From assembly GCA_022605425.2 (NCBI GenBank), contig JAKIMF020000001.1, positions 64,501-128,500 on the forward strand: a stretch of 64,000 nucleotides of DNA, written 5' to 3'. This document shows, one piece after another, positions 2,657 through 35,440 of the stretch. Each line of letters opens with the position of its first letter. Position 1 is the stretch's first letter. Below the pieces are notes generated by a model. That model saw only the letters and a program-made list of their open reading frames with translations, ran no database searches and was not told where the DNA came from. Position numbers and translations under genes: made by a program. The stretch is from Hamiltosporidium tvaerminnensis. Lineage: Eukaryota > Microsporidia > Dubosqiidae.

Positions 2657-5044
2657 ATGATCATAAATTTCGATTTTAAGAACATAGAGAAGTCATTTTT
2701 GAAGAATATAGACAATTGGATATCAATTTTAGTAATTTACCTTTTATTATCGGTAAATTCAACCACGGTAAGCTTCTTTGTTATAAATGAAGAAAATTGC
2801 ATTTCAAATTTACTTGTAAGCGATTTGACACTAGAAATGATATTTTTTTCAAATAAATCGGTTGAGTGGATAACTAATGAAGGAAAAATAACAATTTTTA
2901 AAAATAATATTGTACGGTATGAGTCTACAAATACAGAAACAAAATATTACAATCCCAGTATTTTGGCGATACCTTACAAAAATAATATGTTACTCAATTC
3001 CAAATACATAAAAAATAAATTTGAATTAGAAAAAGCAAATATTAGAATATTTTTCAAAGATGTTTCTTATTCTTCTTTGCTTCTTTTTCTTAAGTTGGTG
3101 AATGAACCGGATTATATCGTTAATCAAATAAAAATAGAAGCATTTATGGATATATTAATAATTCTTTCTATACTGGATATTGATAGCTCTAAAGAAAGAA
3201 ATATATTCTTAAAATATATATTTTTAAATGTAATATATGGAATGCAAAATATAAATTCAATTTCCACAATTGAACAATATTGTGCTAATTTTAACGGTAA
3301 TATCGTAAAAAAGTCCGTCTGTATAGATTTATTTGTCTTACTTATTGGTATTATTACATTCAATGATAAAACAGCGCAACAATTTATTGTTTTCTCAGAA
3401 AAAACTAATCTAGCATTCAAGTATGTAGATCTATATTCTGACACTTACAGCATCATAAAAAAAAATGAGAATGATAAACTTTTTCTTAGACTAGATGATT
3501 TCAGCATTGATAAATTATGCAAAATAGCTAGGATAGATTATTTGCTGAAATCATATGGACTCTTATTTAAGATTACCAAACTAGATCTTCTTTATATAAT
3601 TTTTCAAAAAGAAGATACTTACACAAAAGCCTTTGCACTTCTTTCTGATATAAATTTTAAAACAGAAAAACTTTATGTTCATTCCATTAGGAATACAATG
3701 AAGCTATTTTTTTGGAAAAATTTTAATCAACTTACAAATGAATTGAAAGTATTAAAACTGAGATCTAGTTTTAAAGCGGAAGAATTGATAAAAATGTTAG
3801 ATCAGTGTGTTAAAATAAAGAAAATTACATTGTATACCAATATAATGAATGTTGAAATATTAAGTATTATGATAAATTTTTCTTCGAAAAATCCAAGCGT
3901 CTCTTTCAAAGTTTTTTGTTTAATTTTTGGATTTTTAGATATGAATTTTAGCATTTTTGAAAGTATTACGGATAACATTTGTGTCTATATTCATATTATC
4001 AAATTAGGATCCGAAATAATAAAAATTCCTACTGAATTACTTCCATTCTTACATAAATACAAGCTTGAATACGAATATTCTGAAAATTTTAAACCATTTA
4101 TGTGTATCGTGCTTTTAGAATGTTCTAGATTTAAATACTTTGATTTCGATTATAGCAAACATTCATCACCTTTCAAACTTGAAGATTCATTTTTCACACC
4201 TCTAAGATATTTAGACACCATGAAATATTTTTCATTAGAAAATATTATTATAAATGATGAATTGCTTATGTTTGTTCTCGAATCAGCTACAATTAAAACC
4301 TTAGAAATTACTAACTTTGTTTGTAATTATGATTTCAAACACTTCTTAAAAAACAAAACACTGAATCACAATTTAAGATCAATCAGTCTGACCCACTCAT
4401 TATCCAAAGTTGATTCAAATCTTATTTTATGTTTTGAAAGATTTTATGGCATTTCTCATTTAAAATTACAAAATATAGATTGGATTTCTTCGAAAACTAA
4501 AAGTTTTCACGAATATATATTTAGACTTGTATCATATAAAGATAATAAAATATATCTGAAATGTTTAGAAATTGATGAAGCATTGAACAACAATAAAATG
4601 TTCAATAATTTGCTTTTTCTATCCGAAACATATGGTTATACAAATATTAAAAAGATCGAATATCGAGTATATGAGATCTCAGAAATTGAATATTCCTTTT
4701 TTAATCAAATGACTAAATTAGAGAATATTTTTATTGAGGTTCGAAATACAACAGCTTCAATAAATTTTAAAAAGCTTTTTTGCAATATTGAATTGTTCAA
4801 TACTATAATATTAATATCTATACATGTCAATAGAATTTTTAAAGAAGACACAGGTATATTTAAAAAATTTAAATTCTTGGCTATTTTATACTTCGAATTC
4901 AAAATTCTTGATTTTGATACGATTTCAAATATCAAAAAAAGGGATTTTAAAAATATACAGATTCATATTAGTCCTAATCGGGCCGAAAGATCTGTTGAAA
5001 TAAACAATTATCTTGATTCGGAATTCAAAATAAATTTTTCGTGA
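2657..5044 (+). CDS. large leucine-rich, probably secreted or membrane-anchored protein
   Basis: An uninterrupted 795-residue ORF with an ATG start. Residues about 22-45 form a hydrophobic segment (ISILVIYLLLS) that could be a signal peptide or anchor. The rest is rich in Leu, Ile, Phe, Asn and Lys. From about residue 500 to the end there are irregular leucine-rich repeat spacings of the LxxLxL type. No catalytic motif was recognised. It shares architecture with the broken gene at 26675-29103: a hydrophobic start, a segment near residue 160 (ILIILSILD...) that parallels LLIFLSVFD in the other, then irregular repeats. Both are therefore probably members of one paralogous family. Large leucine-rich families are common in microsporidia and are often thought to act at the host interface, but no function can be read here. 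Confidence 0.75.
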   Translation: MIINFDFKNIEKSFLKNIDNWISILVIYLLLSVNSTTVSFFVINEENCISNLLVSDLTLEMIFFSNKSVEWITNEGKITIFKNNIVRYESTNTETKYYNPSILAIPYKNNMLLNSKYIKNKFELEKANIRIFFKDVSYSSLLLFLKLVNEPDYIVNQIKIEAFMDILIILSILDIDSSKERNIFLKYIFLNVIYGMQNINSISTIEQYCANFNGNIVKKSVCIDLFVLLIGIITFNDKTAQQFIVFSEKTNLAFKYVDLYSDTYSIIKKNENDKLFLRLDDFSIDKLCKIARIDYLLKSYGLLFKITKLDLLYIIFQKEDTYTKAFALLSDINFKTEKLYVHSIRNTMKLFFWKNFNQLTNELKVLKLRSSFKAEELIKMLDQCVKIKKITLYTNIMNVEILSIMINFSSKNPSVSFKVFCLIFGFLDMNFSIFESITDNICVYIHIIKLGSEIIKIPTELLPFLHKYKLEYEYSENFKPFMCIVLLECSRFKYFDFDYSKHSSPFKLEDSFFTPLRYLDTMKYFSLENIIINDELLMFVLESATIKTLEITNFVCNYDFKHFLKNKTLNHNLRSISLTHSLSKVDSNLILCFERFYGISHLKLQNIDWISSKTKSFHEYIFRLVSYKDNKIYLKCLEIDEALNNNKMFNNLLFLSETYGYTNIKKIEYRVYEISEIEYSFFNQMTKLENIFIEVRNTTASINFKKLFCNIELFNTIILISIHVNRIFKEDTGIFKKFKFLAILYFEFKILDFDTISNIKKRDFKNIQIHISPNRAERSVEINNYLDSEFKINFS

Positions 5045-9818: not shown

Positions 9819-10085
9819 TTATTTTTTTTCTTTCTTTTTCAACCCAAAGAATATTAACAATGAATTTTCATATTCTTCATTTCTTAAAAAAAACCATAAA
9901 AAATACAAAAAAAAGACAAAAAAAATTAAAATTTTTCTCAAATTTTTTCTTTCAATCATATAACCAACACCCAACATTAAAATCATAATAAACAGATTTG
10001 GTTCTATAAAATACTGAATATAACCTAAAATTAACAGTAAAACCAATTCAACCAAAAGTTTCAAATTATTCTTCAATTTTGACAT
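9819..10085 (-). CDS. small hydrophobic protein, about three membrane segments (hypothetical)
   Basis: An 88-residue ORF with an ATG start. Predicted hydrophobic segments lie at about residues 9-27, 30-43 and 51-67, followed by a charged tail ending in KKKEKK. This resembles an ER-type membrane protein with a C-terminal dilysine-like end. No family was recognised. It faces the proteasome gene tail to tail. AT-rich DNA easily yields hydrophobic ORFs by chance, so its reality is uncertain. Confidence 0.4.
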   Translation of the reverse strand: MSKLKNNLKLLVELVLLLILGYIQYFIEPNLFIMILMLGVGYMIERKNLRKILIFFVFFLYFLWFFLRNEEYENSLLIFFGLKKKEKK

Positions 10086-11024: not shown

Positions 11025-13085
11025 TTACATGTTTTCTTCTACCTCTTTAACCACTTTTGTCTCTTCTTCCAAATCCGACTCTTCATTTATGTTATTGGTC
11101 GGTTCCTCTAAAGTGGTTCCTCCTTGTAAAATAAAGGGGGCTTTATATTTTGGTTTAAAATTTTTGGCACCATCTTCCTCTGTTTTCGCTTCTTTTAAAG
11201 GGGGTATTGGTTCCTCATGCATCTCTGATCTCATAATAACACCCATTGACGCTCTCTCCCAGCTCTCTTCGGCATTTAGTCCTGACTCAAGTCCTCTTCG
11301 TCGATCAAAGGAAATAGTTTCGACTGTCTTTTTAAGTACTATAGACTGAATGTATGCTTCTACATTCATGGGTATTTCTAGTCTTTTAAGATGAGATTTA
11401 TGGTATTTTGTCACAATACCGTCCCAGGTCATCACATAAGGGATTATCTCAACACTACACTTATAAATAAGGCCCAACTCATTGGCTAGCAGGTCATACT
11501 TCCTAAGTTTTTCAGTTTCAACTATTTGAAGTGAATCTTGGGAAGTGATTCCTACTTCAATGAGTGTTATCTTATTCTTCTTCTTATCTAAAATAAATAT
11601 GTCTGGTCTGTTATTCCGAATTTTAACATCAGTTTTAATTCTGGTGTCCACTCTTATCTCTGCATACTCATTATCAAGAATTTCTTGAACTGAGTGGCTC
11701 CTTATTCGTTTTGAAGACTTAAAATTATATCTATTTAGAAGGAGAAGGTGTAGGCATCTAACCACTTCATTATGCCGTCTAGTGTAATCATGGCCTAGCA
11801 TTTTTTCACATCTAGTTGCTAGATGATCCACAGTCTTACCAGACTTCCCGCAATGTTGACACACACCATCTGCTCCCCAGAATACATTTCTATCCTGGAT
11901 ATAGCAGAACACAGCTTCATTTCGTGGCCTAATATTTCCTCTCTTTAGCCATCTTGAAGAGTCACTAACACTCACAAGCTCATTTTTCCTTGCATTATAT
12001 AACTTTGAATGGAGTTTTCGTTTTTCTATTTCGTTATATAGTTTTGCAAGTTGAGCTTCTTCTAAACTTTTCTTAGTGACTTCTTCTGCCAACCTGTACT
12101 TTACTTTTAAGAAGCCTTTTATTAGTGCAAGATGGGTTTTATTATTATTCTCCACCTTGAGGATTGCTGCTCGTCTAGTTGATATTTCTTTACTTTTTTC
12201 CAGACAATCCAAGAGTTGCAGAAGCATATGTTCGCTTCGCAACTCAACACTATGTAGGCCTCTTCCAAGTTCTGTTCTAGGAAGATACAACCGCTCTTTA
12301 CATCCTGGGCGGAGATGTATCTTATTTTTAACCAACACCGCACGCACTGCATCATCTAACTTAGAGAAGTCAGCTGGTTCAAGTCGAAGTACTCCTATGT
12401 GGTAGTTGATTAACGATATCGCATGTTGATTGATTGCAGAAAATAAATTTTTTGCATTTAATCTAGTGTGACAAAGTCTTTCAACTCTTGATATAAGTTT
12501 GCTCTGTACTTCTTCAAATGAGCTACGTGTTGGGATTCCTCTGCTATCTTCTATTATTCCTAAATATTTGTAAACACTAACACCTTCTAGAAGAGTAGCA
12601 GTATCTTCACAACACGTATCATTTGTGGCTGACTTCTCTTTGTTGATCTCTAAGCCAATCACCTCTAAAAATTCCTTTGCCTCGCCTGTCATAGCACTCA
12701 ATGTGGAGCTGTCTTTTGCAAGGAGCTTAAGATCATCAATAAACAAGAGATGATTAGTAGAATGGGATTCTGCATCTGTTTGTACTGTCACTTTTGTGTA
12801 TTTTTCATTAAGCTTTCGGCTTAATGGATCCATACACAACACAAACAACAATGGTGACAAACTATCTCCTTGCAGAATCCCTCTATCAATCTTCTTGCTC
12901 ATGATTTTTTCAGGCCCTACTGATATATCAATTTTCCATTTTGATATAATTACCTTAATAAATTTCAGGATCCAATCAGGTAGATTAAGGTTTTCAATGC
13001 ATTGAGTTAAATAAGCATGATCTATTGAATCATAAGCTTTTTTAACATCAATCCATGTTGCCTTAAGATTGTTTCCGTACTCTTT
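11025..13085 (-). CDS. LINE polyprotein, C-terminal part: RT core, zinc knuckle, endonuclease
   Basis: Downstream reading frame of the LINE protein. It is open from about 13085; the first in-frame ATG is at 12902, but that lies inside the RT and is not a real start. RT motifs in order: WIDVKKAYDSIDH (motif A, about 13045-13007), ILQGDSLSPLLFVLCMDPL (motif B), HLLFIDDLKLLAKD (motif C, FxDD). The knuckle CQHCGKSGKTVDHLATRC fits CX2CX8HX4C. The endonuclease motif is RPDIFIL...ITLIEVG. All catalytic aspartates of RT are present. The C-terminus is acidic. The protein would nick its target and prime reverse transcription there. The separation from the first part is one extra A. Confidence 0.85.
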   Translation of the reverse strand, partial: KEYGNNLKATWIDVKKAYDSIDHAYLTQCIENLNLPDWILKFIKVIISKWKIDISVGPEKIMSKKIDRGILQGDSLSPLLFVLCMDPLSRKLNEKYTKVTVQTDAESHSTNHLLFIDDLKLLAKDSSTLSAMTGEAKEFLEVIGLEINKEKSATNDTCCEDTATLLEGVSVYKYLGIIEDSRGIPTRSSFEEVQSKLISRVERLCHTRLNAKNLFSAINQHAISLINYHIGVLRLEPADFSKLDDAVRAVLVKNKIHLRPGCKERLYLPRTELGRGLHSVELRSEHMLLQLLDCLEKSKEISTRRAAILKVENNNKTHLALIKGFLKVKYRLAEEVTKKSLEEAQLAKLYNEIEKRKLHSKLYNARKNELVSVSDSSRWLKRGNIRPRNEAVFCYIQDRNVFWGADGVCQHCGKSGKTVDHLATRCEKMLGHDYTRRHNEVVRCLHLLLLNRYNFKSSKRIRSHSVQEILDNEYAEIRVDTRIKTDVKIRNNRPDIFILDKKKNKITLIEVGITSQDSLQIVETEKLRKYDLLANELGLIYKCSVEIIPYVMTWDGIVTKYHKSHLKRLEIPMNVEAYIQSIVLKKTVETISFDRRRGLESGLNAEESWERASMGVIMRSEMHEEPIPPLKEAKTEEDGAKNFKPKYKAPFILQGGTTLEEPTNNINEESDLEEETKVVKEVEENM

Positions 13086-14787
13086 ATTTCAGCGCAATAT
13101 TCAGTAGAGCCTGCTCTTTCGCTCCCTGCACACCTCTTACCGCCCCTAATTGGTTCTCTGCAAGCAACCCTCGCCTTTCCACTTCAAGTTGAACGACCTT
13201 TGTTACACACTTTGTCGTTAACTTATAGAGGTTGGACATACAAGTGATTGGCCTGTAGTCAGAGCCTCTTCGTGGAATTCCTTTCGGTATCAAATACGTA
13301 AGCCCGCAGTAAAACCAATCAGCTTGAGGTGTTCCTTCTAAACATATAACTTTCACAATATCATAAATATATTTGTGAAGAGTTGTAAGTTTCTTAATGA
13401 AAAAATTGTAAATACCATCAATTCCAGCAGCTTTCCAATTAGGGAGCCAATTAATGATATTCACAAATTCATCAAGTGAAGGAAACGTGGTCGGATGATT
13501 ATCTGATACAAATGGAATCAAATAATCATCGTACGTGACTGTGTCATCATTTTTGTTCCACATTGTAGACCAAAAACTCACAATTTCATCACGGCTAACC
13601 ACATGCTCGGATTCCAAACGCTCAGATAACCCACGATAAAATCGACCTCGGAAAAGCTCAAACATACGATTCTCTTTTCGGAATTGCTTCCTACTTTCAT
13701 GCATCGTAATTTTTTTCTCGTAAACATTCAAAGACTCATTCTTCTTAACTAAAGCCTCAGAAAGATCAGTTACGCTGCTCAAGTTTAAATTAAACTCTCG
13801 CATGATTTTCTTAAGGCTCTTCGTTTCCGAAGTGGAGAGCTTTTCCTGCTTACGAGCCTTCTCGAGAAGATCTTTGGAAAGTACTAACTTAGAAATTTTA
13901 CTTTCTATGTTTTCCTTCCAAGCGGATCTAGGCTTTTCTTTGCGTGTTGCCTCGTCATAGCATACCTGCGCAGCTTGCATGATATACGCGGCTTCCGTAA
14001 TTGACTCAGGTACATGAGCTCCTGCATATTCACCGACTACTCGATTAATGAGATCCAGAACTTTACTATCAACCAATTCATTTGGATGTTTTCTAGTTCG
14101 GACCACTACTTTTCCAATTTCGTTCTCAGAGATTTCTTTGATTTTACTCAAGAATTTATCTCTCAGGTTTATGTACTCCGTGGTGTCGGTCAAGGTGCAT
14201 GTATCAGCGAGACAAGTGGCGATTCTACGTCGCTCTCCATTCTCTTCTGATTTTACATCCTTTCCCATCTCACTTTGTGCCAATTTTTTTAACACTTCGA
14301 GAGTTTCAGTGCAGCCGAATTTCTCATTATAGTACCTGTGAAGCTCTGTCCAGCCATTTCTTGGCATTCTTTCAAACCTTGTCTGTACTGCAAAAAAAAC
14401 AATTCGAGGCCATTCCTTCGGGTCGGCTGTTACGGAATCGAATATCGTCCGCAATGCCATTAGCCTGTTACCTTCCGGAATAGCTAGAGTACAGGGGCTT
14501 GTCATGTCGTACGATGGCTCGCACGCAGAGACTTCAACCGAAGAGGGAACTGGTGCATTAGGCGAAGGTAAGGTGTCAAGCCCACTATTTTGCATTTTAC
14601 TGCATGTTTGGCTTGGTGGTGGAGGTTTTATTGTTGTGTAGGAGGAGGAAGGTAGGGGAATCGCCGGTGGGTGTAGCTTACATTTTTGTATCTCACTATC
14701 ACTCTTTTTCACCTCATCAGCGTCGTTTGCAGCCTTTATTTTGGTATTATTCGATATTTCGCTGCTAACATTTTTCTTTCTACCCAT
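13084..14787 (-). CDS. LINE polyprotein, N-terminal part: proline-rich region and start of RT
   Basis: The start is taken at the ATG of MGRKKN (14787). The frame stays open further upstream only through a homopolymer tract that would encode poly-Phe. Residues about 35-75 are rich in Pro and Ser (KPPPPSQ). A Lys/Glu-rich, probably helical, region follows. RT begins with NWKAAGIDGIYNFFIKKLTT and DYRPITCMSNLYKLTTKC (motifs 1-2). It ends at a TAA at 13084-13086, preceded by AAA. Dropping one A there joins it to the RT core frame. No N-terminal CCHH fingers of the R2 kind were seen. Confidence 0.8.
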   Translation of the reverse strand: MGRKKNVSSEISNNTKIKAANDADEVKKSDSEIQKCKLHPPAIPLPSSSYTTIKPPPPSQTCSKMQNSGLDTLPSPNAPVPSSVEVSACEPSYDMTSPCTLAIPEGNRLMALRTIFDSVTADPKEWPRIVFFAVQTRFERMPRNGWTELHRYYNEKFGCTETLEVLKKLAQSEMGKDVKSEENGERRRIATCLADTCTLTDTTEYINLRDKFLSKIKEISENEIGKVVVRTRKHPNELVDSKVLDLINRVVGEYAGAHVPESITEAAYIMQAAQVCYDEATRKEKPRSAWKENIESKISKLVLSKDLLEKARKQEKLSTSETKSLKKIMREFNLNLSSVTDLSEALVKKNESLNVYEKKITMHESRKQFRKENRMFELFRGRFYRGLSERLESEHVVSRDEIVSFWSTMWNKNDDTVTYDDYLIPFVSDNHPTTFPSLDEFVNIINWLPNWKAAGIDGIYNFFIKKLTTLHKYIYDIVKVICLEGTPQADWFYCGLTYLIPKGIPRRGSDYRPITCMSNLYKLTTKCVTKVVQLEVERRGLLAENQLGAVRGVQGAKEQALLNIALK

Positions 14788-14790
14788 CCA

Positions 14791-14925
14791 TAAAAAAAAA
14801 AAAAAAAAAAAAAAAATAAAAAAAAAAAAATAAAATTTAAAAAAAAATAAAATAAAAAAAAAAATAAAATTTAAAAAAAAATAAAATAAAAAAAATAAAA
14901 TAAAAAAAATAAAGAGAAACAAAAG
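14791..14925. repeat. A-rich simple repeat at the 5' end of the LINE
   Basis: Long A runs broken by TAAAAT and TTTAAAAAAAAATAA, matching the tract at 10917-10980. It may be the second half of a duplicated target, or a slippage-prone region. Confidence 0.65.
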
Positions 14926-15106: not shown

Positions 15107-15760
15107 TTATATGGCTTTTGCCAAATTACTAGAAAACTCTTCCAAACTACCCTTATCACGTATAATACTAACATGCAATCCTTTCGAAATAAGTTTTCCT
15201 TCGTCTTTAAGTTTTTCAAATTCTTCTTTTTTAATTTCTGTAAATCCAAACTTACAACTTTCTTTAATTTCATGTTTTCCAGGGAATTTATGCATGGCAC
15301 GTTTTAAAGCAACAAATGCATGATTTTTTAAATTTTCTTTTGTTCGAATACTGATGAGTGGTTGACCGAAATCTACACGGGCTACTCTTCCGTAGGGCTT
15401 ACCAAAAGAACCACGCATACCTGTTTGTAACCGATCTGCACCTGCACAACTCAACATTTTATTTATACGTATTACGTGATAAGGATGTATGTTTATACGA
15501 AGATGAAAATTATCTTTACCTGCATGTTTAGCCATGTACTTGTTAGCAGCTATACGTGCTGCTTCTAAGGCTTCTGAGGATATTTGTTCGCGTTCACGGG
15601 ACAAAAGATGGATTGAGGCTGGAAAATCTAAGACTGGAGCTGCTCTTCTTCCTAAATCGAATATCATTATTTTAGAGTCCGGTACACCTCTACAGTAACG
15701 AGATTTTATGTAGGGTTTGTTTTTACAGTATCTGTAACATCTGCCTGGTCTTCTTCCCAT
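15107..15760 (-). CDS. RPL10: 60S ribosomal protein uL16 (L10)
   Basis: A 217-residue protein of normal length for the family. It begins [17 protein letters not shown] and carries the L10e signature [16 protein letters not shown] (about residues 113-128). It sits in the large ribosomal subunit near the peptidyl-transferase and P-site region and joins late in 60S assembly. The ATG at 15760 is preceded by CCCTCA, so a CCC motif lies 4-6 bases upstream. The frame is intact and there is no intron. Confidence 0.96.
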
Positions 15761-19168: not shown

Positions 19169-20902
19169 TTATCCAGAGAAAACTCTAAACCAATTTCTTA
19201 GATTATGAAAACATATTCTATGAAAAGCCAACTTAAGAATTTGTTGTAAACAACACGCAGAAAATTGAAGCAGCTCGTCAATCTTAAATTCCTTTTCATA
19301 CCCACTTTTTTTACTATAAAGAACGCAAGTTTCTTCGCTTCCTTCTAAAAAAATTTTAATAGCCTCGAACTGAAAAACTATAAACTCATATTTGCCACCG
19401 CAAAGTTTCTTTATAGTTCCTATTTTAATGATATATTCCGATAATCTGATATATAGTTCCAAGATGCTTCTTTTTACAGTTTCATCAATGTTTTGAAAAA
19501 AAAAATCGGTATATCTTTTCTTATTAGCGACTGATGGTAGTTTATGTAAAATACATATCATCATTGCGTCGAGATTGAGGAATATACTCTTAATTAAATT
19601 TTCGTTCATTAAGAATATAACATCATTCAAAATATTTAATTTGTGATAATAAAACAAGGAGTTATCACCTAGCCTATTGCCTACAAAACCATAATAGATC
19701 GTTTTTTCAAGCGTGTACATTAAAGAATAGATTAAATTATGTTCGATCGATAATACAAAGATCTTTATAACTTTCATAAAACATTTTTTTAAATGTTGTT
19801 TTTTCTTCAAATACCATCGACGTTCTTCATGGTGATTAAATTTATCTTCATTTTTGGATTCTTGATTATTATATCTCTGTTGAATTTTATCTACAATTGG
19901 ATTGTTTAAAAGTAATTTTAAATTCAAAATAGCCTTAAAATAATCGCCATTTTTCAGTCGAATAGAATCAATTTCTTCTTTAAGTCTAAATTCGAAAGAT
20001 ATAAATTCTGGTAATATAAAAAATATATAATTGTTTTTTTTGTCTAAAATTTCCAAAATTGTCTTCTTCCAATTCGTAATAAAATTCGATGAATAAAGTC
20101 GATCCCAGTCTGGTAAACAGAATAAAGGTGATATAGGGTTGACTGAATAAATACATATCTTGGCTTCATAATCACGGTACTCCAATTTTAGTTTTTTGTA
20201 ATCATGTTCAAAATTTTCGACCGAATTTAATTTTTCTACTTCTATATTCATCTGAAAAATAATATTTGCGAATTCTAAATCAGTGAACACAGTAAAGATA
20301 AAATCGGGATTCTGATTATCTTGTTCCCTATAAATACTTTCTAAACTACCAAAATGCTCATTTTCTAGCAAAAAGAACCTGTAAATTTTGTATATTAGAA
20401 TCAAACATTTTTTAATATTCAAATATAAATTTTCTACATCGACAAAATCAGTAAGTATCTCTTCATGCATATATTTAAAACTAAAAGCAGTTGTTTTTTT
20501 GTTTTCATAGAGATTCTTTTTAAGGACTTCAAAACTACAATAAACCTGATATTCGTATTTCGATAAAATATATGTATAACGTTCGATATTTGAGATTGTC
20601 AAATATTCATAGTGTAATTCAAAATCTTTTAGAACTTCATCTAACCTAAATTTTATTTTTTCCCTTAGAGGCATATCGTTCTTCAATCGCCTGGAATGAA
20701 TATCTTTAATGGGTTTTTTTGAAGCAAAAGAACCATCAAATCTTGCCATTGTATTTTCAGTATTTGGTATACACATAGGCTTCCATTCGCTAATATCGGT
20801 ATTCTCAATAGTTTCTACATCAATATTTTCATCCTCTGATTCAATAAACGAAGCGTTTGAACTTAAGCCGAAAAGAAGCAACAATATAAAACCCAACAAC
20901 AT
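19169..20902 (-). CDS. secreted protein of unknown function
   Basis: A 577-residue intact ORF with an ATG start. The first 18 residues (MLLGFILLLLFGLSSNAS) form a clear signal peptide, followed by an acidic stretch. No further membrane span or known motif was recognised. The mature part is rich in Lys, Glu, Leu and aromatic residues, probably mostly helical, with scattered cysteines in the C-terminal 100 residues. It may be exported to the host or spore wall, but this is inferred only from the signal peptide. It stands alone in gene-poor DNA. Confidence 0.75.
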   Translation of the reverse strand: MLLGFILLLLFGLSSNASFIESEDENIDVETIENTDISEWKPMCIPNTENTMARFDGSFASKKPIKDIHSRRLKNDMPLREKIKFRLDEVLKDFELHYEYLTISNIERYTYILSKYEYQVYCSFEVLKKNLYENKKTTAFSFKYMHEEILTDFVDVENLYLNIKKCLILIYKIYRFFLLENEHFGSLESIYREQDNQNPDFIFTVFTDLEFANIIFQMNIEVEKLNSVENFEHDYKKLKLEYRDYEAKICIYSVNPISPLFCLPDWDRLYSSNFITNWKKTILEILDKKNNYIFFILPEFISFEFRLKEEIDSIRLKNGDYFKAILNLKLLLNNPIVDKIQQRYNNQESKNEDKFNHHEERRWYLKKKQHLKKCFMKVIKIFVLSIEHNLIYSLMYTLEKTIYYGFVGNRLGDNSLFYYHKLNILNDVIFLMNENLIKSIFLNLDAMMICILHKLPSVANKKRYTDFFFQNIDETVKRSILELYIRLSEYIIKIGTIKKLCGGKYEFIVFQFEAIKIFLEGSEETCVLYSKKSGYEKEFKIDELLQFSACCLQQILKLAFHRICFHNLRNWFRVFSG

Positions 20903-26674: not shown

Positions 26675-29103
26675 TTAGAAAGACATATTGTTTGATATGA
26701 TCTTCATTTGATAAACTAATACGAGCAGAGTAAGAGAAGGAAAGTTATTTGAGTTGAAAAGCCAAATATTAGATATATCTAAATATATTATAGAAAGCTT
26801 TAACTTTGCAATTTTTTTGAGAGAAATAATGAAACTTATATCAGGTTTTTTCAATGGAATATAAGTGACATTTAAAGAAAGCAAATTTTTGAGGAACGAA
26901 GGATTTTTCATATTACTTATACAACAGTTATTTAAAACACAACCTGATATATTTATGGATACAAGTGATCGCATATTTGAAATAATTTGCATATCTTTTA
27001 GATATAAATCAGTATTCGAAATAGTTAATTTTTTTATTTTACTACAAATTGTGCTATATCCTGAAAAATTAGATTTCATAAGATCAATTCCTGAATTGTA
27101 AATTTTTAGTTTTTCAAGTTTTGCAAAAGAATCAATCGCTAGAGAAAAATTCTTTTCCGTATCTTTTGTCGAATGAGGTTTTTCTCTTAAAAAAACATCT
27201 CTCGGAATTTAATTTACTACTTTTTAACAAACAAAACCTGCATTCTGTTATTTCCAGATCCACCAAGTTTTTCAATTCTAATATAAATTTCAAATCTTCA
27301 ACCGAAATAGAAACATATTTTAATTTTAGTACTTGTAATCTCGTTACTAACGAAGTAGAACCCAAATCTTTAAAGCTACATCCTTCAAAGCGACAATCAT
27401 CCAATACCAAAGATTTCAAACCAGCATTTCTTAAAATATATCTCACACAAAAAGTATTTATAAACAAACCGAAAAATTTGATTTCTTCCAAAGAATCATT
27501 CATTTTCATATTATAAGTTCGTGGTAAAAATAAATTTACGTATCCGTTTATCACTATGAATTTTAATATTCGTATTTTCTTTAACAGAAAAACAAAATCA
27601 AATGCAAAAACCAAATTTTCTCCGGTAATATCATGAATTTCAAATCTAGTTAAGGAATCAGTACATTTGCAATATTTCATACCAATGTAAAACTCCTTCG
27701 CTGATTCTATGACAGTAAACTTTTTAAACACAATACTTTGCAAATTTTTTAAATCTAAAATACTTTTCCAATAATTTTTTGTTATTCTAACCGATTGAAA
27801 ACAGATATCTTTCAAAGTCTGATTTGAATTGTAGAGTTCATGTAAACATACATGACAATATTGTAATCCTTCGAATTTAATTTTTATACTTTCCAGTGAA
27901 TTATGTTCTAAAAGCCAATTATATTCCATTTCCCTTAAATTCATGTTTATAAAACTTATATTTTTAAGATCTTTGCTTATTTTGTGCCTAAGCATTTCAA
28001 ACAACACTGCAAATTTGCCTGAAATAGAAATCAAAGTAATTGAAGTGAAAGAATTTATAAAGAAAATACTTCCATAAATTTTTCTAAAATACCCAAGCGG
28101 TATATGAATGCCACACAATATCAATAAATTTATATTTAAATATTTCAATATCTTATCTAGAAAATCAAAAAACATAACATCTGATAAAAGTTTTTCAAGA
28201 ATTAACAAAGTTTCAAAATCTAAAATCACAAATGAAAAGTCTTCAGTAGAAAGTAATTTACTTTTTACGTGTTTATTCTTACAAGCACTCAAAATAAAAC
28301 ATTTACCGCATTTCCTCACATTCAAAGTAAAAGTATTAAAAATACAAATCATTAAATCTTCGATAAAAAGCTTCGACACATTTTTTCCCAGCAAAACTTT
28401 ATCTATATTTTGATTTAAGAATCCCGAAAAATCTATTTTACACGCAAATAACTGATTAATCAGATAAAAAACAATAATTCTCACATTTTTTGTATTTCTA
28501 GCATCAAAAACACTTAAAAAAATAAGTAAATTCAACACCAACTCATACATTTCATATTTTTTCGCATTCATAACCAGAAATACTCAATTTAAAATATTTC
28601 GATAAATATTTATCATCAAAACGCGACATTCCCACCGTAACAGAATCAAACGCAGAACACATCTTTAAAAAATATAAAATATCGTGATTTACAGATACAA
28701 AGCCTCTACAATAGCTTTCTAACCGAATAGGAAACAAACACCTGTCAAAATACTCAAACACCACAAATTCCCTTAATTTATACATAAATACACTATTTAT
28801 GACCAAATCAGACTCTTCAATCCCCACACACCCCTCTTCAGTATTATTCATATATCTTTCCTTACAAACACCACTCTTCATACCTACACACCACTCTTCA
28901 TTATTATTTGTAAATCTTTCCTTACAAATACCACCTTTAGATAAAACACACCCCTCTTCACCATTATTTATAAATCCTTTCATATCATAAAATATGACAC
29001 AATCCTCCTCCAATACACCCAAATATCCATACCCACTACATACACATCCACTAATAAACACCCAAATTATACATTCCAAACATATAAACCGAACAATCAC
29101 CAT
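26675..29103 (-). pseudogene. leucine-rich secreted protein gene broken by two frameshifts
   Basis: Three adjoining open frames in order on the minus strand: 28552-29103 (183 residues, signal peptide, then a Cys/Glu-rich segment with an imperfect repeat around EEGCVG...KERYMNN), 27132-28571 (479 residues, irregular leucine-rich repeats) and one ending at 26675 (first ATG at 27079, but open from further upstream; more leucine-rich repeats). The first break lies in an A/T run at 28557-28562 and the second at 27189-27195. Removing one base at each restores a continuous frame of about 800 residues, like the intact paralogue at 2657-5044. Either the gene is decaying or the assembly has homopolymer errors. 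The N-terminal repeat segment lies in AACACCC-type minisatellite DNA (28810-28990). Confidence 0.75.
28810..28990. repeat. minisatellite-like repeat inside the leucine-rich gene
   Basis: ACACCCCTCTTCA and CTTTCCTTACAAA recur with a roughly 60-bp period, three times. In the coding frame it gives repeated NNxEEGCVG and GxCKER blocks. The ACACCCCTCTT core links it to the minisatellites at 29.7-35.4 kb. Confidence 0.6.
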
Positions 29104-29669
29104 CTCTTTCTATATATGGGTTCATAATTATTGCTATATCTTTAAATTAAATTAATTAAAATCTTTAAAAAAATGTAAGCGATTATAAAGTTTCATAAAA
29201 TTAATCTAAAAATTTGAAAGATTAAATTATAAAATAGAAATATTTTACTTAAAATGAATTTAATCTTACAACAGGATTTATAATATAAATGTATTGTAAT
29301 TTGTCTACGTTTAGATAAAAACAATCAATTTAAAAAAATATATTTCTTCCAACTATTCCATTGATGTAAACAGTAAAATATAATTGATCAAAATATATTA
29401 AATATGTATTTTATCTCCATCTCTAAACCACAAATAATATAGCACCAATTTCATCAATAACTTATTTTTTTAATTAATTTAATTAGCATTTTGTCCCATT
29501 AATAAAAATAACACTGATTTAATTTACTTTATATTTCTTATTTTTTAACAAACTTTTTACCCTTTAAATAATTACAAATCTTTTAATATTTTATTTCCTA
29601 AATAATAAAATAAATAAAAAATAATTACATTTTAAAGCCATATAATCTTATTTTATATTTTTTATATAA
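29104..29669. other. AT-rich upstream region of the leucine-rich gene
   Basis: A TATATA box-like stretch lies just upstream of the start on the minus strand (29112-29118). Otherwise nothing was recognised. Confidence 0.4.
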
Positions 29670-30125
29670 GCACCCTCTTAATTATGAGTATAGTAGTTAA
29701 CACCCTCTTAATGATAAGTATGTATATTAGCACCTCTTATTTGCTAGAAGTTTTATTAACACCCTTTATTTGATAGTAGGTTTCTTGACACCCTCTTAAT
29801 GATTGTAGTAGTTAACACCCTCTTAATGATTAGTATGTATATTAACACCCTATTAATCTTGAATATTGTAGTTAACACCCTATTAATCTTGAATATTGTA
29901 GTTAACACCCTATTAATCTTGAATATTGTAGTTAACACACTCTTATCCACTACTCTCATAGTTAACACCCTCTTATCCACTACTCTCATAGTTAACACCC
30001 TCTTAATAACACTTCTTATAATTAACACCCTCTTAATAACACTTCTTATAATTAACACCCTATTAATAACACTTCTTATAATTAACACCCTCTTAATAAC
30101 AATTCTTATAATTAACACCCTCTTA
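29670..30125. repeat. AACACCC minisatellite array, plus orientation
   Basis: Roughly 15 units of about 30 bp carry TTAACACCCTCTTA or TTAACACCCTATTA with changing spacers. Several adjacent units are identical (for example, three with ATCTTGAATATTGTAG). It lies directly 3' of the bromodomain gene on the opposite strand. Confidence 0.9.
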
Positions 30126-31541
30126 TTTAACTACATTTTCTCTACATATATCTAACACCCTTTTATACAACACATCCACAGCAATATCAACAGCCATTTT
30201 ACTTACCCTTTTAAAACCCACCTTACCAACCTCAATGACAAACAAATCCCCAATAACACTCTTAACACACTCTTTATCTAAGAAAGATACTTTTAAATTC
30301 CTTTTCCCTTTAAAATAAACCCCCCCTTTAAATTCCTTTTGAAATCCCCATTTTATTTCTTCCAATCCAATCATATTTTTATATTTGTTCAGAAATAACA
30401 CCCCTACCTTACTTACATCACTCTTAATATAATTAACAGGAAAACTATTGCACAGAAACTCACCATCCCACATAGGTATTAAAGGGGTGTTATTTGTATG
30501 GTGTGTTAGTAAAGGGGTGTTATTGCCAATACTGGTATTTAAAGGGGTGTTAATACTAGTACTATCATTTAAAGGGGTGTTATTGCCAATACTGTTATTT
30601 AACGGGGTGTTAATACTAGTACTATCATTAACACCCTCTAACATATCCTTATCATTAACACCCTCTAACATATCCTTATAATTATCTATACTTTCATATA
30701 AAAGAGTGTTATTACACTCTCTACTGTAATAATAACCCATCATTTCACCAGTCCTCCCATAACACCAATACTCCTTAGGCCTAACATGGTGATAAGTATC
30801 AGTACAGTTATTAACAGGGTGATAAGTATCAGTATTGTTACTAACACCCTCTAATTTATTAAACCTATCAATAACACCCTCTTCTACCCCCCTACTATCA
30901 ATAACACCCTCTACTACCCCCCTACTATCAATAACACCCTCTTCTACCCCCCTACTATCAATAACACCCTCTACTACCCCCCTACTATCAATAACACCCT
31001 CTACTACCCCCCTACTATCAATAACACCCTCTACTACCCTCCTACTATCAATAACACCCTCTACTACCCCCCTACTATCAATAACACCCTCTACTACCCT
31101 CCTACTATCAATAACACCCTCTATCCCAACCCCTATACCATTGTACTCTAACACCTTATAACATAACTCCTTCATTCTACAACAATACTCACTAAAAATA
31201 TTATTACAATTATATTTAAAACAATTTCTCCAAACAAGTTCTAAATCATTATAAAACCCTTCTACACTATAATTATTTATCTTTCTACTTATAAGTCCTA
31301 AATCCATTGGTTTACTTATTATTTTTAAATAGTCAGGTGCTTCTTTTTTACTTACTTTTTGTAGGAAAGGAAGAGAATAGGGTGTGTTTGTTTTTAAGGT
31401 GTAAAGGATTGCTTGGTATTTCCTTATCGGTGGTATTAACACTTCTTTTATAAATTTTGTTTTTTCTACTGAAGAACATAAAATTTTAATAGAAAAAGGA
31501 ATTTCTTCTTCTAAGTCATCAGGGGAGAGAAGAGAGTACAT
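30123..31541 (-). CDS. bromodomain protein, SPT7-like, with minisatellite-encoded linker
   Basis: A 472-residue ORF with an ATG start. Residues about 30-135 form a bromodomain: PDYLKIISKPMDLGLISRKI and WRNCFKYN, where the Asn (about 111) is the expected acetyl-lysine contact. Residues about 140-345 are low-complexity repeats from the minisatellite (VVEGVIDSRG eight times, then NNTPLN blocks). The C-terminal 115 residues are again non-repetitive and end in a helical basic region that could be a histone fold as in SPT7. SPT7 is a SAGA co-activator scaffold; that assignment is inferred from order and length, and GCN5 is unlikely because no acetyltransferase motif is seen. The coding-strand leader reads ACACCCCCTTA before the ATG. 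Confidence 0.75.
   Translation of the reverse strand: MYSLLSPDDLEEEIPFSIKILCSSVEKTKFIKEVLIPPIRKYQAILYTLKTNTPYSLPFLQKVSKKEAPDYLKIISKPMDLGLISRKINNYSVEGFYNDLELVWRNCFKYNCNNIFSEYCCRMKELCYKVLEYNGIGVGIEGVIDSRRVVEGVIDSRGVVEGVIDSRRVVEGVIDSRGVVEGVIDSRGVVEGVIDSRGVEEGVIDSRGVVEGVIDSRGVEEGVIDRFNKLEGVSNNTDTYHPVNNCTDTYHHVRPKEYWCYGRTGEMMGYYYSRECNNTLLYESIDNYKDMLEGVNDKDMLEGVNDSTSINTPLNNSIGNNTPLNDSTSINTPLNTSIGNNTPLLTHHTNNTPLIPMWDGEFLCNSFPVNYIKSDVSKVGVLFLNKYKNMIGLEEIKWGFQKEFKGGVYFKGKRNLKVSFLDKECVKSVIGDLFVIEVGKVGFKRVSKMAVDIAVDVLYKRVLDICRENVVK
30478..30670. repeat. AACACCC minisatellite inside the bromodomain gene, inverting direction
   Basis: AAAGGGGTGTTA units (minus orientation) at about 30480-30612 flip to AACACCCTCTAACATATCC units (plus) at about 30631-30670. 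All remain in frame and encode NNTPLN and DMLEGVN blocks. Confidence 0.85.
30871..31110. repeat. 30-bp minisatellite, 8 units, inside the bromodomain gene
   Basis: Eight nearly identical 30-bp units (ATAACACCCTCTWCTACCCC + CCTACTATCA). Each encodes ten residues, so copy-number changes keep the frame. The near identity suggests recent expansion. Confidence 0.95.
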
Positions 31542-31544
31542 TAA

Positions 31545-32035
31545 GGGGGTGTAAGGGTTAGTAGTGTTAGTAGGAGGGTGTAAGGGTAAGTAGTGATATT
31601 TAACACCCTGTTATATAATGGTAGTATTGTTTAACACCCTGTTATATAATGGTAGTATTGTTTAACACCCTCTTATATATTAGTATCGTTGTTATACACC
31701 CCTTTAAACATTACTAGTATATTTGTTTAACCCCCTTTAAACATTACTAGTATCAATAACACCCTTTAAGCATTACTAGTATCAATAACACCCTTTAAGC
31801 ATTACTAGTATCAATAACACCCTCTTATATAATAGTATCGTTATTTAACACCCTTTTAATTACTAGCATTGTTATTTAACACCCTCTTAATTACTGATGG
31901 TGTTATTTAACACCCTATTATCCACTACCTATATTATTTAACACCCTCTTAGTTAAAAAGTATCAATAACACCCTCTTATTTCCACACCATATAGTTAAT
32001 ACCCCTTTATCCCCACACCATATAATTATCACCCC
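31545..32035. repeat. AACACCC minisatellite, upstream of the bromodomain gene
   Basis: Starts with two GGGTGTAAGGG units on the opposite strand near 31545-31585, then plus-orientation TTAACACCC units with 20-35-bp spacing. It fills nearly the whole space between two divergent genes. Confidence 0.9.
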
Positions 32036-32157
32036 TGCTACACATGTTTTATATTTAATTTAAAAGTAAAACACTTATGAAACAGTTACAGTAATTAAAA
32101 CCCCATTGGTCCTTACTGTAACACATAAACTATATAAAGACACAAAAAATAATTTTT

Positions 32158-32628
32158 ATGTCTGAAAATCAAAACCAAGACGAACAAGGAAATAACGGTG
32201 AAGGAAAAAATTGGCTTAAAATTATTTTAACAATAGTTCTTGTAATTATAGGTATTTCTATACTAGGATTTATAATTTATTATTTGATGGTTAAATATGG
32301 CAGTAGTTCATCTGCAGGAGGAGCAGCCTTAGCCCCTAAATCAAAGGGAAGTACTAAGGAGGGTAAAGAGAGTAAAGAGAGTAGCAGTAAAGATAACAGT
32401 TCTAAGGACAATGGTAAAGATAAAGAAAGTGCACTCATAGGTGAACCGCTTAAACAGTCAGCTGAGAGTATGGCTTACTCTTCTTTCCATCCTGAGTCTA
32501 ATATAGCCTCTAAGGAGGAGAAGAGTGAGAAGAAGAAGAAAGGAGCTAAGAGTGCTTTACATGAAGGGTTTGATATTAAAAATGACTTGTTTGCTCAAAA
32601 AGAAGTATATCAGCCAGGAAGTGTGTGA
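32158..32628 (+). CDS. small single-pass membrane protein (hypothetical)
   Basis: A 156-residue ORF with an ATG start. An acidic, Asn/Gln-rich N-terminus (about 17 residues) is followed by one strong membrane span at about 20-45 (IILTIVLVIIGISILGFIIY), then a Ser/Lys/Glu-rich, probably disordered tail. No signal cleavage site or family was recognised. The composition is clearly coding compared with the surrounding repeats. It diverges from the bromodomain gene across a minisatellite-filled intergenic region. Confidence 0.65.
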   Translation: MSENQNQDEQGNNGEGKNWLKIILTIVLVIIGISILGFIIYYLMVKYGSSSSAGGAALAPKSKGSTKEGKESKESSSKDNSSKDNGKDKESALIGEPLKQSAESMAYSSFHPESNIASKEEKSEKKKKGAKSALHEGFDIKNDLFAQKEVYQPGSV

Positions 32629-32689
32629 GAAGGGTTTAAATAAAAATATTAAGCGTTTAAATTTTATTGTAAGAATATAGGGTTATTTA

Positions 32690-33090
32690 TAAGAGGGTGT
32701 TAATTATTAGTAGTGTTACTAAGACCCTCTTATATAACTTTAGTGTTATTAAGACCCCTTTATATAACTTTAGTGTTACTAACACCCTTTATATACCTTT
32801 AGTGTTATTAAGACCCTCTTATATAACTTTCGTCTTACTAAGACCCTCTTATTCATTACTACTGTTAGTAAGACCCTTTATATAACAAATACGTATCTAA
32901 GACCCTTAATCCAACACTACTATAAATTATCACCCCCTTATCTAACTTTAGTGTTATTAAGACCCTTTATCACACACTACTGTTAGTAAGACCCTCTTAT
33001 ATAACTTTAGTGTTATTAAGACCCTTTATATAACAAATACGTATCTAAGACCCTTTATCTAACACTACTCTTACTAACATCCTTTTATTT
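32690..33090. repeat. minisatellite variant AAGACCC, between two genes
   Basis: Units TTAAGACCCTCTTATATAAC and TTACTAACACCC with 20-30-bp spacing. AAGACCC replaces AACACCC in most units, so this is a local subfamily that spread in place. It ends about 25 bp before NOP10. Confidence 0.85.
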
Positions 33091-33115
33091 TCTATTTCTC
33101 AAATGCCCTTTAAAA

Positions 33116-33277
33116 ATGCTTTATCATTATTTAGAAGATAATATAAGAAAATATACACTTAAGGAAAATAACAATACAATACAGTCACATCCTTGTAAGT
33201 TCTCACCAGTTGATGAATTATCTGAGTATAGAGTTGTTATAAAGAAAAGGTTTAAAATAAAACCGTTTGAGGAATAG
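33116..33277 (+). CDS. NOP10: H/ACA snoRNP subunit NOP10
   Basis: A 53-residue ORF that is easy to miss. It reads MLYHYLEDNIRKYTLKE, then SHPCKFSPVDELSEYRVVIK and KRFKIKP. These match the NOP10 pattern of an N-terminal YxL...YTLK ribbon, a HPARFSPDDKYSRHR-like middle and a KKRF tail. Length is near the family norm of about 60. NOP10 binds the pseudouridine synthase CBF5 with GAR1 and NHP2 in H/ACA particles that modify rRNA. The start is the second of two nearby ATGs; the first (33103) is in another frame and stops after 12 codons. Confidence 0.9.
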   Translation: MLYHYLEDNIRKYTLKENNNTIQSHPCKFSPVDELSEYRVVIKKRFKIKPFEE

Positions 33278-33284
33278 AAGGATA

Positions 33285-33450
33285 GGATAAGAGGGTGTTA
33301 GTTATTAAGGTATGTGGATAAGAGGGTGTTAGTTATTAAGGCATGTTGATAAGAGGGTGTTAGTAATAAGGGGTCATATTAAAAGGGTGTTATTTATTAG
33401 GTGTCTTATTAAGAGGGTGTTAATAAGCTACTAGTAAATAAGAGGTCTTA
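33285..33450. repeat. AACACCC minisatellite, minus orientation
   Basis: Six units of GATAAGAGGGTGTTAGTTATTAAGG type, the reverse of the array upstream, begin immediately after NOP10. Confidence 0.9.
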
Positions 33451-33549
33451 ATGGACATATATATTTATTTTGTTGTTATTTTAATAATAAAGCTATTTAA
33501 GTCTTTAAACTATAAAAATTTATTACTAACCTGTTTGTAGTACGTACTT

Positions 33550-34015
33550 ATGTTAACACCCTTTATATAACAGTACTTATGTTAAAACCCCTTTACATAA
33601 GTATACCAATAATTAACACCCTTTGAGTAACTATCCTAGTAATTAACACACTTTAAGTAACTATACTATAAATTAACACCCCTTTACACGAGTATACTAT
33701 AAACCAACACCCCTTTATATAACTATACTATAAACTAACACCCTTTACATAAGTATACCAATAATTAACACCCTTTAAGTAACTATACTATAAATTAACA
33801 CCCCTTTACACGAGTATACTATAAACCAACACCCCTTTATATAACACGCATTAAACCAACACCCCTTTAAGTAACTATACTAATAATTAACACCCTTTAC
33901 ACAACTATACTATAAACCAACACCCCTTTATATAACTATACTAATAATTAACACCCCTTACACAAGACTACTATAAACTAACACCCCTTTACATAACTAT
34001 ACTAATAATTAACAC
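33550..34015. repeat. AACACCC minisatellite, plus orientation
   Basis: About 17 units of AACTATACTAATAATTAACACCC(C)TTTA type with 25-30-bp period. It abuts the 3' end of the RAD17-like gene. Confidence 0.9.
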
Positions 34016-34016
34016 C

Positions 34017-34418
34017 CTACCCACCTCTTCCCCTCCCCTTTAAATAATAAGGAGATTTAAAACTATAAAAACACTTTGGTTTTAGCTTTTCTATACCCAT
34101 AACACATATAACATTACATAACACCCCTTCACTATAACAATCAAATAAAGATAAATTATCTATAATAACACCCTGTTCTCTTATATCAGTAAAATATAAA
34201 TAATTTTCAAATAAATAGTCTTTTATTTTATTTTTAAAAAATGAAATATTATTTAATATTTGAAGTGCTTTATTATCAGAGGGATTGTCAATTATATCTG
34301 GGTTTTGTTCTTTATTATCTAATTTGTCTTCTTTATCTTCTTTTTTATCTTCTTTTTTATTTTCAAATTTTTTATCTTTTTTCTTCTTGTTCTTGTCTTT
34401 ATCTTTTAATTTGTCCGA

Positions 34419-34451
<33 letters not shown>

Positions 34452-35129
34452 GTAGTAAAATATTTTGCCTAGGAAATGATAAAAGGATAGAGAGGTGTTA
34501 TAACAAGAGAGTATGTTTAAAGGGGTGTTATTAATAGGTAGTATGGTTAGAGGGGTGTTATTGATATTACTGATAGCTAAAGGGGTGTTATTACTAGACC
34601 TCTTACTAACACCCCTTTTACTACACCTCTTACTAATACCCCTTTTACTTACCCTTCTATTAACACCCTTTATATCACACACCTGTTCACTAACACCCCT
34701 TCTACTTACCTCTTCAAAAATACTGAGTGAGTGTAAATTAGGTGTTACTAAATTATACTTAGATAATAGGGTGTTAGTTGTATATAAAAACTTAACAAGT
34801 ATACTACCTTTAACACATTTACTAAGAAAATACAAATTACGGGTTTCTATTACTATATTTAAAGGGTGGGTGTTATTCTTAAGAAACTTATTAAAGTCTT
34901 CTAACGTGTCTATATCTGTATGGGCTATAGTATTGGTAAATAAGAGGGTGTTAGTGTAAGTAGAAGGGTTAGGGAAGTAAAGGGGTGTTATTTTTAAGGA
35001 GTGAAGTGTTTTATATAAAATATGGGTTTTTCCTGTGCCGGGTGGTCCGTAAAGTATTATTGGGGAGGTTAAACGGTATTGAAGAGCTGATAATAGATTC
35101 GTGGTGTTCTTTTTATGGATATTTAGCAT
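34017..35129 (-). CDS. RAD17: RAD17/RAD24-like checkpoint clamp loader, compact
   Basis: A 370-residue ORF with an ATG start. Walker A GPPGTGKT lies at residues 28-35 and a Walker-B-like LNIVIETRN at about 90-98. The later motif SLSFYHFLGKIFYY is characteristic of RAD17 (compare SLSLFHALGKILY), followed by a segment resembling RAD17's NYxxF...xxDIL region. The protein is part of the clamp loader that puts the 9-1-1 clamp on damaged DNA. It is much shorter than animal RAD17. A middle block (about 145-215) is encoded by the minisatellite (RGVSKR and NNTPL units), and residues about 227-237 are an Asp-Arg dipeptide run from a TCGGTC hexamer. The coding-strand leader is ACACCCCCTTTAAAC before the ATG. 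Confidence 0.7.
34510..34700. repeat. AACACCC minisatellite inside the RAD17-like gene
   Basis: GGGGTGTTATT units at 34518-34590, then the opposite orientation TAACACCCCTTTTACT up to about 34700. Frame is kept in both directions. Confidence 0.85.
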
Positions 35130-35149
35130 GTTTAAAGGGGGTGTAAGTA

Positions 35150-35440
35150 AGGTATTATAAGAAAGGAAGAAAGAGGGAGTAGGATAGAAGGGGTGTTAGT
35201 ATAGTAGATGGTATGGAGAAGGGTGTTAGTGATAAGGATATGTTAGAGGGTGTTATTTCGAAGTAGACCTAATTAAAGGGGTGTTAGTGATAAGGATATC
35301 TTAGAGGGGTTTAGTTTAAAGTACCTGTAATTAAAGGGGTGTTAACTATTAGACTGTCAAGTTAAAGGGTGTTAATATCAATACCGTGTTTAAAGGGTGT
35401 TAATATCAATACTAATATTTAAAGGGTGTTAACTATTACA
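35150..35440. repeat. AACACCC minisatellite upstream of the RAD17-like gene
   Basis: About nine AAAGGGTGTTA units in minus orientation fill the 5' flank of the gene. From 35441 to 35971 the DNA is AT-rich with no supported gene; an ATG-less open frame ends at 35576. Confidence 0.85.

Follow-up and report, generated by a model that had tools for sequence, protein, structure and literature searches.

A 64-kb stretch of the genome of the microsporidian Hamiltosporidium tvaerminnensis, which parasitizes Daphnia and has a published assembly of 21.64 Mb in 17 contigs (PMC10542269), carries an island of minisatellites that share the heptamer core AACACCC. In this stretch (hereafter the window; 64,000 nucleotides of contig JAKIMF020000001.1), a direct scan detected 60 copies of AACACCC and 27 of GGGTGTT. 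Eighty-four of these (58 on the plus strand and 26 on the minus strand) lay between 28.8 and 35.45 kb and only three lay elsewhere, at positions 9966, 11238, and 52069, while base composition predicts about 2.9 copies for the whole window. The island proposed earlier from the letters of the window alone (the original prediction) is therefore real. It also changes orientation many times, as had been claimed, the 84 copies forming 10 same-orientation runs with nine switches when counted by hand from the scan list. Tandem Repeats Finder (TRF) delimited about ten arrays, most with periods of 27–33 bp or multiples of these, so that short-period arrays are indeed present, although their typical period is 27–31 bp rather than 20–35 bp. 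The proposed AAGACCC block at 32.7–33.1 kb, in which the core is a variant one, was recovered by TRF.

The features of the island are listed in Table 1. The left boundary had been placed at 28.8 kb, but the DNA there is a different, 60-bp repeat, and AACACCC arrays proper begin at about 29.66 kb. Similarly, two of the three genes thought to be entered, the bromodomain and AAA-type open reading frames (ORFs), do contain core arrays, whereas the third is reached only through the 60-bp variant. The later part of the bromodomain protein contains in-frame 9- or 10-residue repeats produced by the core arrays. All Pfam matches of the AAA-type ORF, one of them to the RAD24 helical bundle, fell below the cut-off; in this ORF, simple repeats (GTCTCG × 5.5 at 34419–34451 and TCTTTTTTATCT-like runs at 34308–34382) lie beside the core arrays.

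Table 1. Features of the AACACCC island (positions in the window).
Feature	Position	Strand	Remarks
60-bp repeat, 2.8 copies, ACACCCC/ACACCA	28812–28981	-	Inside ORF 28552–29103; related-looking outlier at the left edge
Noncoding array, 30-bp period, about 15 TTAACACCCTCTTA-type units	29663–30125	+	Reaches the 3′ end of the bromodomain ORF
ORF, 472 aa, bromodomain at residues 46–112	30123–31541	-	PF00439, E = 1.1e-14
Coding array, 30/60-bp period, AAAGGGGTGTTA units	30510–30629	-	TRF
Coding array, 27-bp unit TAACACCCTCTAACATATCCTTATNAT	30623–30684	+	Antisense to the ORF; read as NDKDMLEGV; unit also in other islands
Coding array, 30-bp period × 8.6, 97% matches	30865–31123	+	Read as EGVIDSRGVV
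Noncoding arrays, 29–33-bp periods and multiples	31599–31951	+	Between two divergent ORFs
ORF, 156 aa, one membrane span by eye, without core	32158–32628	+	
Noncoding array, variant core AAGACCC, about 30-bp period	32711–33085	+	TRF
Noncoding arrays, 30–31-bp period, opposite orientation	33285–33426	-	TRF
Noncoding array, 30–31-bp period × 15.3	33554–34017	+	Between two convergent ORF ends
ORF, 370 aa, P-loop AAA-type N terminus	34017–35129	-	Repeats in both orientations
Coding arrays, 30-bp (-) then 27-bp (+)	34494–34714	.	TRF
Noncoding arrays 5′ of the AAA-type ORF	35191–35432	-	TRF array at 35220–35432

The island is confined within the window, but the family of its core is not: a search of the H. 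tvaerminnensis genome (21,638,905 bases in 17 contigs; 27% GC) found TAACACCC at 6,178 exact places compared with 275 for the reversed control, TTAACACCCNTTTA at 399 places compared with none, and 2,162 tandem core pairs 20–28 bp apart compared with none. The original scope was thus too narrow. The copies are not spread at a similar density everywhere but sit in clusters, and among the core pairs listed, contig C1 alone had at least 13 clusters at a 15-kb gap, ruling out that the window island is a unique or centromere-like feature. In the 10 kb at the start of each of the 17 contigs, TAACACCC was scarce: it formed one full array (22 copies), was scattered at five places in another contig, occurred once in each of three, and was absent from the remaining 12, one of which was covered in part. 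Arrays had 3–22 copies and periods of 24–42 bp, mostly 27–42 bp.

Individual units are also found at more than one locus. A 24-mer present at 30629 and 30656 in the bromodomain ORF has an exact reversed copy in noncoding DNA at 35232. Genome-wide, it occurred at 15 exact places in about ten clusters and, with up to two mismatches, at 114 places compared with none for the control; the 100 places listed among these 114 formed at least 35 clusters on at least 15 of the 17 contigs. Matches to another island with no more than two of 17 spacer bases differing were found for 24% of 233 distinct coding units and 10% of 213 distinct noncoding units, compared with 0.8–0.9% for shuffled spacers. The original prediction is supported in part, and its proposal that a core spread and was then amplified locally fits the data: some units are common to unlinked islands far above the control, spacers are uniform within arrays and differ between them, and the core is better kept in most arrays. 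As to flipping of cores in place, 58 coding C-cores had a G-core no more than 150 bases away, and their spacers fitted better directly in 35 cases and better inverted in 19 (close fits, 9 and 0); those of 14 noncoding cases fitted better directly in 6 and inverted in 8 (close fits, 0 and 3); these numbers are too few for the contrast to be read further, and frame selection could account for it. No element ends were visible by eye in the arrays, which vary in length, although no dedicated search for the terminal inverted repeats or target-site duplications of a miniature inverted-repeat or other transposon was made.

The way in which the repeats are read inside genes bears on how they were copied. 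In 13 repeat-bearing ORFs, of which four have no Pfam family, the heptamer was read in six ways, as xGV (143), NTx (34), xHP (28), xVL/WVF (25), GCx (6), and xTP (4). The codons were nearly fixed: Gly-Val at repeat spacing was GGT GTT in 125 of 144 cases in 12 of the 13 ORFs, compared with 42% GGT and 40% GTT in 14 control ORFs; His-Pro was CAC CCT or CAC CCC in 38/38, compared with 31% CAC among control His codons; and Thr-Pro used ACC in 13/13. Some spacer codons were equally fixed, with Ser encoded by AGT in 39/39 at one position and 28/28 at another, and others less so (11/19 at the position next to the former). The fixed spacer codons argue that the unit as a whole goes back to a common ancestor and that the peptides did not converge, and the six frame and strand readings together with the fixed codons indicate that the family was copied as DNA. 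Judged from sequence, common descent of the family at the DNA level is thus shown. Spacings between cores were a multiple of three in 141/155 cases within these ORFs and in 94/165 outside them (counted without islands L020 and L026), and the commonest spacing was 30 bp both inside and outside ORFs. The presence of motif copies between genes as well as inside conserved genes suggests that the DNA motif, and not the encoded proteins, is what is being acted on.

Repeat-bearing ORFs of other islands included CPSF_A, PI3/4-kinase, Methyltransf_8, DSHCT, and helicase-C domains, and a Pfam family was found in 7 of the 10 that were scanned; Mon2/Sec7 DCB and RSE1-type propeller matches were below the cut-off. 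When an H. magnivora repeat protein was used as the query, 47 of 7,997 scored candidates matched, 46 of them named as Hamiltosporidium and one being the window's own ORF; the names included ubiquitin-activating enzyme, PrP8 domains, RNA polymerase subunits, VPS13, Snf22, ski2, and histone deacetylase. Another protein search gave 12 matches, 11 named as Hamiltosporidium and the last again the window's own ORF. Since the same kind of repeat occurs in proteins of both Hamiltosporidium species and in short-contig as well as long-contig assemblies, an assembly artifact is unlikely. The H. tvaerminnensis PI4-kinase (1,809 aa) contains 21 repeat motifs, compared with none in nine and one in the tenth of ten PI4-kinases chosen by hand among the 120 matches listed (by name, eight proteins of other microsporidia and two of other fungi). 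Eleven of the 21 motifs lie in stretches that nearly all compared proteins lack; of the remaining ten, eight belong to a series of 10-residue repeats, which the aligner failed to set apart. By eye, an ORF resembling the largest RNA polymerase subunit (locus L036, contig C5) has repeats of the same kind. All the named proteins retrieved belong to Hamiltosporidium. The original prediction had not foreseen what is apparently a genus-specific family of thousands of copies, many of whose arrays lie in frame inside conserved genes.

We next consider the constraint on the core. In all the sequence obtained, every TRF array with a period of 24–43 bp, at least three copies, and AACACCC, AAGACCC, or AAAACCC in its consensus was aligned to its own consensus and was counted as coding when it overlapped an ORF of at least 130 aa. 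In 27 noncoding arrays, the seven core positions matched the consensus at 95.9% (1529/1595) and the remainder at 86.8% (4676/5385), with the core above the spacer in 25; in 42 ORF-overlapping arrays, the values were 95.9% (1624/1694) and 89.7% (4668/5205), with the core above the spacer in 34. An earlier run on 15 hand-picked noncoding arrays, also aligned to their consensus, gave 95.2% for the core and 83.8% for the spacer, C bases being retained at 94% in the core and 74% in spacers. Pairing of neighboring units had yielded the opposite result (core 63.2% and spacer 70.3% in noncoding arrays; 59.3% and 71.3% in coding arrays) and was discarded, since the offset maximized spacer identity, the cut-off of 9/15 bases was loose, and many of the listed "lost" cores were intact ones displaced by one base.

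The conserved block extends beyond the core of the original prediction, comprising about 13 bp with the approximate form TAAcACCCyyTWA. A T preceded the core and two pyrimidines followed it in 27/27 noncoding consensuses (two of them identical), neither feature having been a selection criterion; beyond the pyrimidines, T was present in 26/27 and A at +11 in 22/27. Conservation within the block dips at +2 and at +7/+8, and a TAA...TTA dyad symmetry, never more than partial, was counted by hand in 16/27, which is as far as the evidence goes for the fold-back signal named in the original prediction. Spacers were G-poor on the core strand (C 529, G 205 in a noncoding sample), and helical phasing of the sites was not seen among periods of 27, 29–31, 36–39, and 42 bp. 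As a probe for the motif, we put forward TAACACCCTTTTA.

The islands also contain a companion repeat, CCCTAACCCTA...TGCATAAACA, which is found inside genes as well and occurred at 43 places in 13 clusters, compared with none for the control. Its first half matches the C strand of TTAGGG, the telomere repeat of H. tvaerminnensis (PMC10542269), and it is read as NPNPTLTLNKCIN-like peptides. Sequence was examined at 10 of the 13 clusters, three of which had been chosen by the core (L019, L021, and L025) and the others by the companion (L029–L035). The companion-chosen loci contained 37, 17, 18, 34, 30, 22, and 4 copies of AACACCC, compared with about 0.1 expected for each. As a lead only, telomere-like insertions would suit an origin of the islands in break repair.

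We propose that a Hamiltosporidium-specific, core-sharing minisatellite family, with the window island among its many loci, arose by recombinational spread and local amplification, with coding copies filtered by frame; we rate this reading as an even call. The unit would be the ~13-bp conserved block plus a freely evolving, G-poor spacer, mostly 27–42 bp in total. Units would increase in tandem by slippage or unequal exchange, and ectopic recombinational copying, for example gene conversion or template switching, would transfer pieces from one island to another in either orientation. In genes, only in-frame and stop-free outcomes would survive, because purifying selection would remove frame-breaking events, and conserved proteins would thereby gain 9–10-residue repeats. 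The core would stay intact because it promotes the process, most likely as a site where a protein binds and where recombination or breakage starts. The copying route, the recombinogenic core, and tolerance through weak selection are what we infer from the arrays. Better preservation of the core in noncoding DNA of an AT-rich genome calls for a reason, and a site that promotes recombination or breakage is our first choice, followed by a binding site with another role and by descent combined with selection bias. Gene conversion and protein-binding sites, both named in the original prediction, are each possible. A stronger form, in which the ~13-bp element is a self-propagating selfish site that a cellular protein binds, with breakage or recombination promoted there and copies added or transplanted by repair, appears to us tentative and somewhat improbable. 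If true, a selfish site would have expanded through the noncoding DNA and conserved genes of one microsporidian genus, lengthening proteins on its way.

Several observations weigh against our proposal. Mutated cores amplify (AAGACCC in two islands, and AAAACCC in units of L011 and in the L019 consensus), so that the exact core would be dispensable for the local steps. The core was kept worse than the spacer in 7/42 coding and 2/27 noncoding arrays. Moreover, the comparison admitted only arrays whose consensus contained the core or a one-base variant of it, and core matches served to choose most islands. In L018–L028, 18 of 53 arrays had fewer than two ACACCC, some of these being core variants; islands therefore also carry core-less arrays, and part of the cause may be regional. 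Finally, when 27 H. magnivora sequences were compared with 35 of H. tvaerminnensis, only two pairs passed the filter, and in the Mon2-like orthologue pair the 678 aligned residues were interrupted by one gap of 8 residues. The array length of this pair is thus almost unchanged, and it does not appear hypervariable on the cross-species scale. The pair named VPS13 had six gaps in 332 aligned residues, and the gaps in both pairs suggest that array change is ongoing but not fast. Separately, AAGACCC was seen to form a 37-bp-period array at 243–484 of the unlinked island L020 (contig C4).

The same observations can be read in other ways. The arrays could be clustered binding sites of a DNA-binding protein with a cellular role (chromosome organization, origins, insulation, or transcription), their core being kept by selection. 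The extended block, with its dips at +2 and +7/+8 and its frequent TAA...TTA symmetry, would suit such sites, as would the C1 clusters, which average one per 150 kb among the core pairs listed. We consider this explanation unlikely, since, in the loci seen, the arrays show no constant position or orientation with respect to ORFs, occurring within coding DNA, between ORFs that diverge or whose ends converge, and downstream of ORFs, and since they amplify variant cores and have periods of 27–42 bp without helical phasing. Ordinary neutral minisatellites, seeded widely from one ancestral repeat and amplified by slippage, would need no recombinogenic core if its conservation were only apparent, through descent and the choice of arrays. 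That the arrays were chosen by core, that broken cores amplify, and that several spacer codons are conserved too are all consistent with this, as is the small effective population size proposed for the species on account of vertical transmission (PMC12449221). However, noncoding cores depart from the consensus about one-third as often as spacers (4.1% versus 13.2%), and core C bases in the hand-picked arrays were retained well above those of spacers in a genome of 27% GC, and we likewise think this account improbable.

Selection on the repeats as protein sequence, for instance as flexible or variable repeats, would account for the fact that peptides of 9–10 residues, NDKDMLEGV and NNSTYEQQGV among them, recur in many proteins. 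It was disfavored by the six readings of one DNA motif; the same arrays also lie in noncoding DNA, and many hosts are, by domain or name, conserved intracellular proteins, making this explanation barely credible. Another idea is that the core is an amplified transcription signal, as microsporidia have CCC or GGG signals just upstream of starts (PMC2803860). TTACACCCCC, which is close to the repeat core, stands just before the ATG of two infested ORFs (31541 and 35129), and AAACCC or CAACCC precedes the ATG of some others. Nevertheless, such a signal is located within ~15 bp upstream of the ATG, and many array copies are instead found within ORFs, between ORF ends that converge, or at a distance of hundreds of bases from any start; the clear cases outside the islands (uL16 and the ORF at 8743) have CCC but lack the TAACA part. 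Promoter arrays are thereby rejected, and an amplified start signal is very unlikely. In the window, a CCC-like tract was seen just upstream of the ATG of several ORFs (31541, 35129, 15760, and 8743).

Several ORFs of the window outside the island (uL16, a proteasome-like protein by reading of the sequence, two GATA proteins, and UBC) carry none of the repeats. For the ribosomal protein at 15107–15760, the closest PDB structure was 6zu5, from a microsporidian ribosome. At 11025–14922, two minus-strand ORFs together resemble a non-LTR (long terminal repeat) retrotransposon, with RVT_1 in the one scanned and A/T-rich tracts near the ends. Large ORFs at 2657–5044, 19169–20902, and 26675–28571, some leucine-rich-repeat-like by eye, possibly represent a lineage-specific gene family flanking the island; the one scanned among them (27132–28571) had no Pfam match.

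Among known systems, the hypervariable minisatellites of vertebrates described by Jeffreys are unlinked arrays of ~10–60-bp units with a shared short core and array-specific spacers, and a recombination-promoting core was proposed long ago for the human arrays. The Hamiltosporidium family resembles them in its tandem units of this size, in sharing a core at unlinked loci, and in keeping this core better than the rest. It differs in the core itself and in having thousands of cores, many in frame in conserved genes, and both recombination and hypervariability would be putative here. Rickettsia palindromic elements, small elements of an intracellular parasite, likewise occupy both noncoding DNA and in-frame genic sites, but they are bacterial single palindromes and not tandem arrays of spaced cores. 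In Octosporea bayeri (= H. tvaerminnensis), Corradi et al. in 2009 described in-frame, species-specific insertions of 15–57 aa in 14 conserved proteins, which reverse transcription–PCR found to be retained in mRNA (PMC2784321). These insertions share the organism and the frame with the present family and are likened to it by description only; the parts of that paper available to us describe no shared DNA motif, both-orientation repeats, or noncoding counterparts. PARCEL repeats are tandem, peptide-coding, and mobile within genomes, with dyad symmetry in their DNA (PMC2996958), but they form a 25-residue amphipathic protein-level motif across many, distant taxa, whereas the present repeats encode 9–10 residues in several frames, occur also in noncoding DNA, and have named matches in Hamiltosporidium alone. 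The AACACCC family is not mentioned in the accessible parts of PMC2784321, PMC10542269, and PMC12449221 or in literature titles and the beginnings of abstracts, a coverage that leaves aside subscription papers and the 2020 Hamiltosporidium genome paper (Haag et al.). In-frame insertions were thus already known in this species, and the shared DNA motif family is apparently new in light of these sources.

On our reading, a process at the DNA level, and not protein function, would build large in-frame repeats into conserved eukaryotic genes, including those for PI4-kinase, CPSF, helicases, and, by name, RNA polymerase subunits. The family would then be a concrete contributor to the length of some proteins in a large-genome microsporidian. 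Since the motif is defined, it can be tested for binding and recombination, and the old idea of a recombination-promoting minisatellite core would become testable in a small fungal-type genome.

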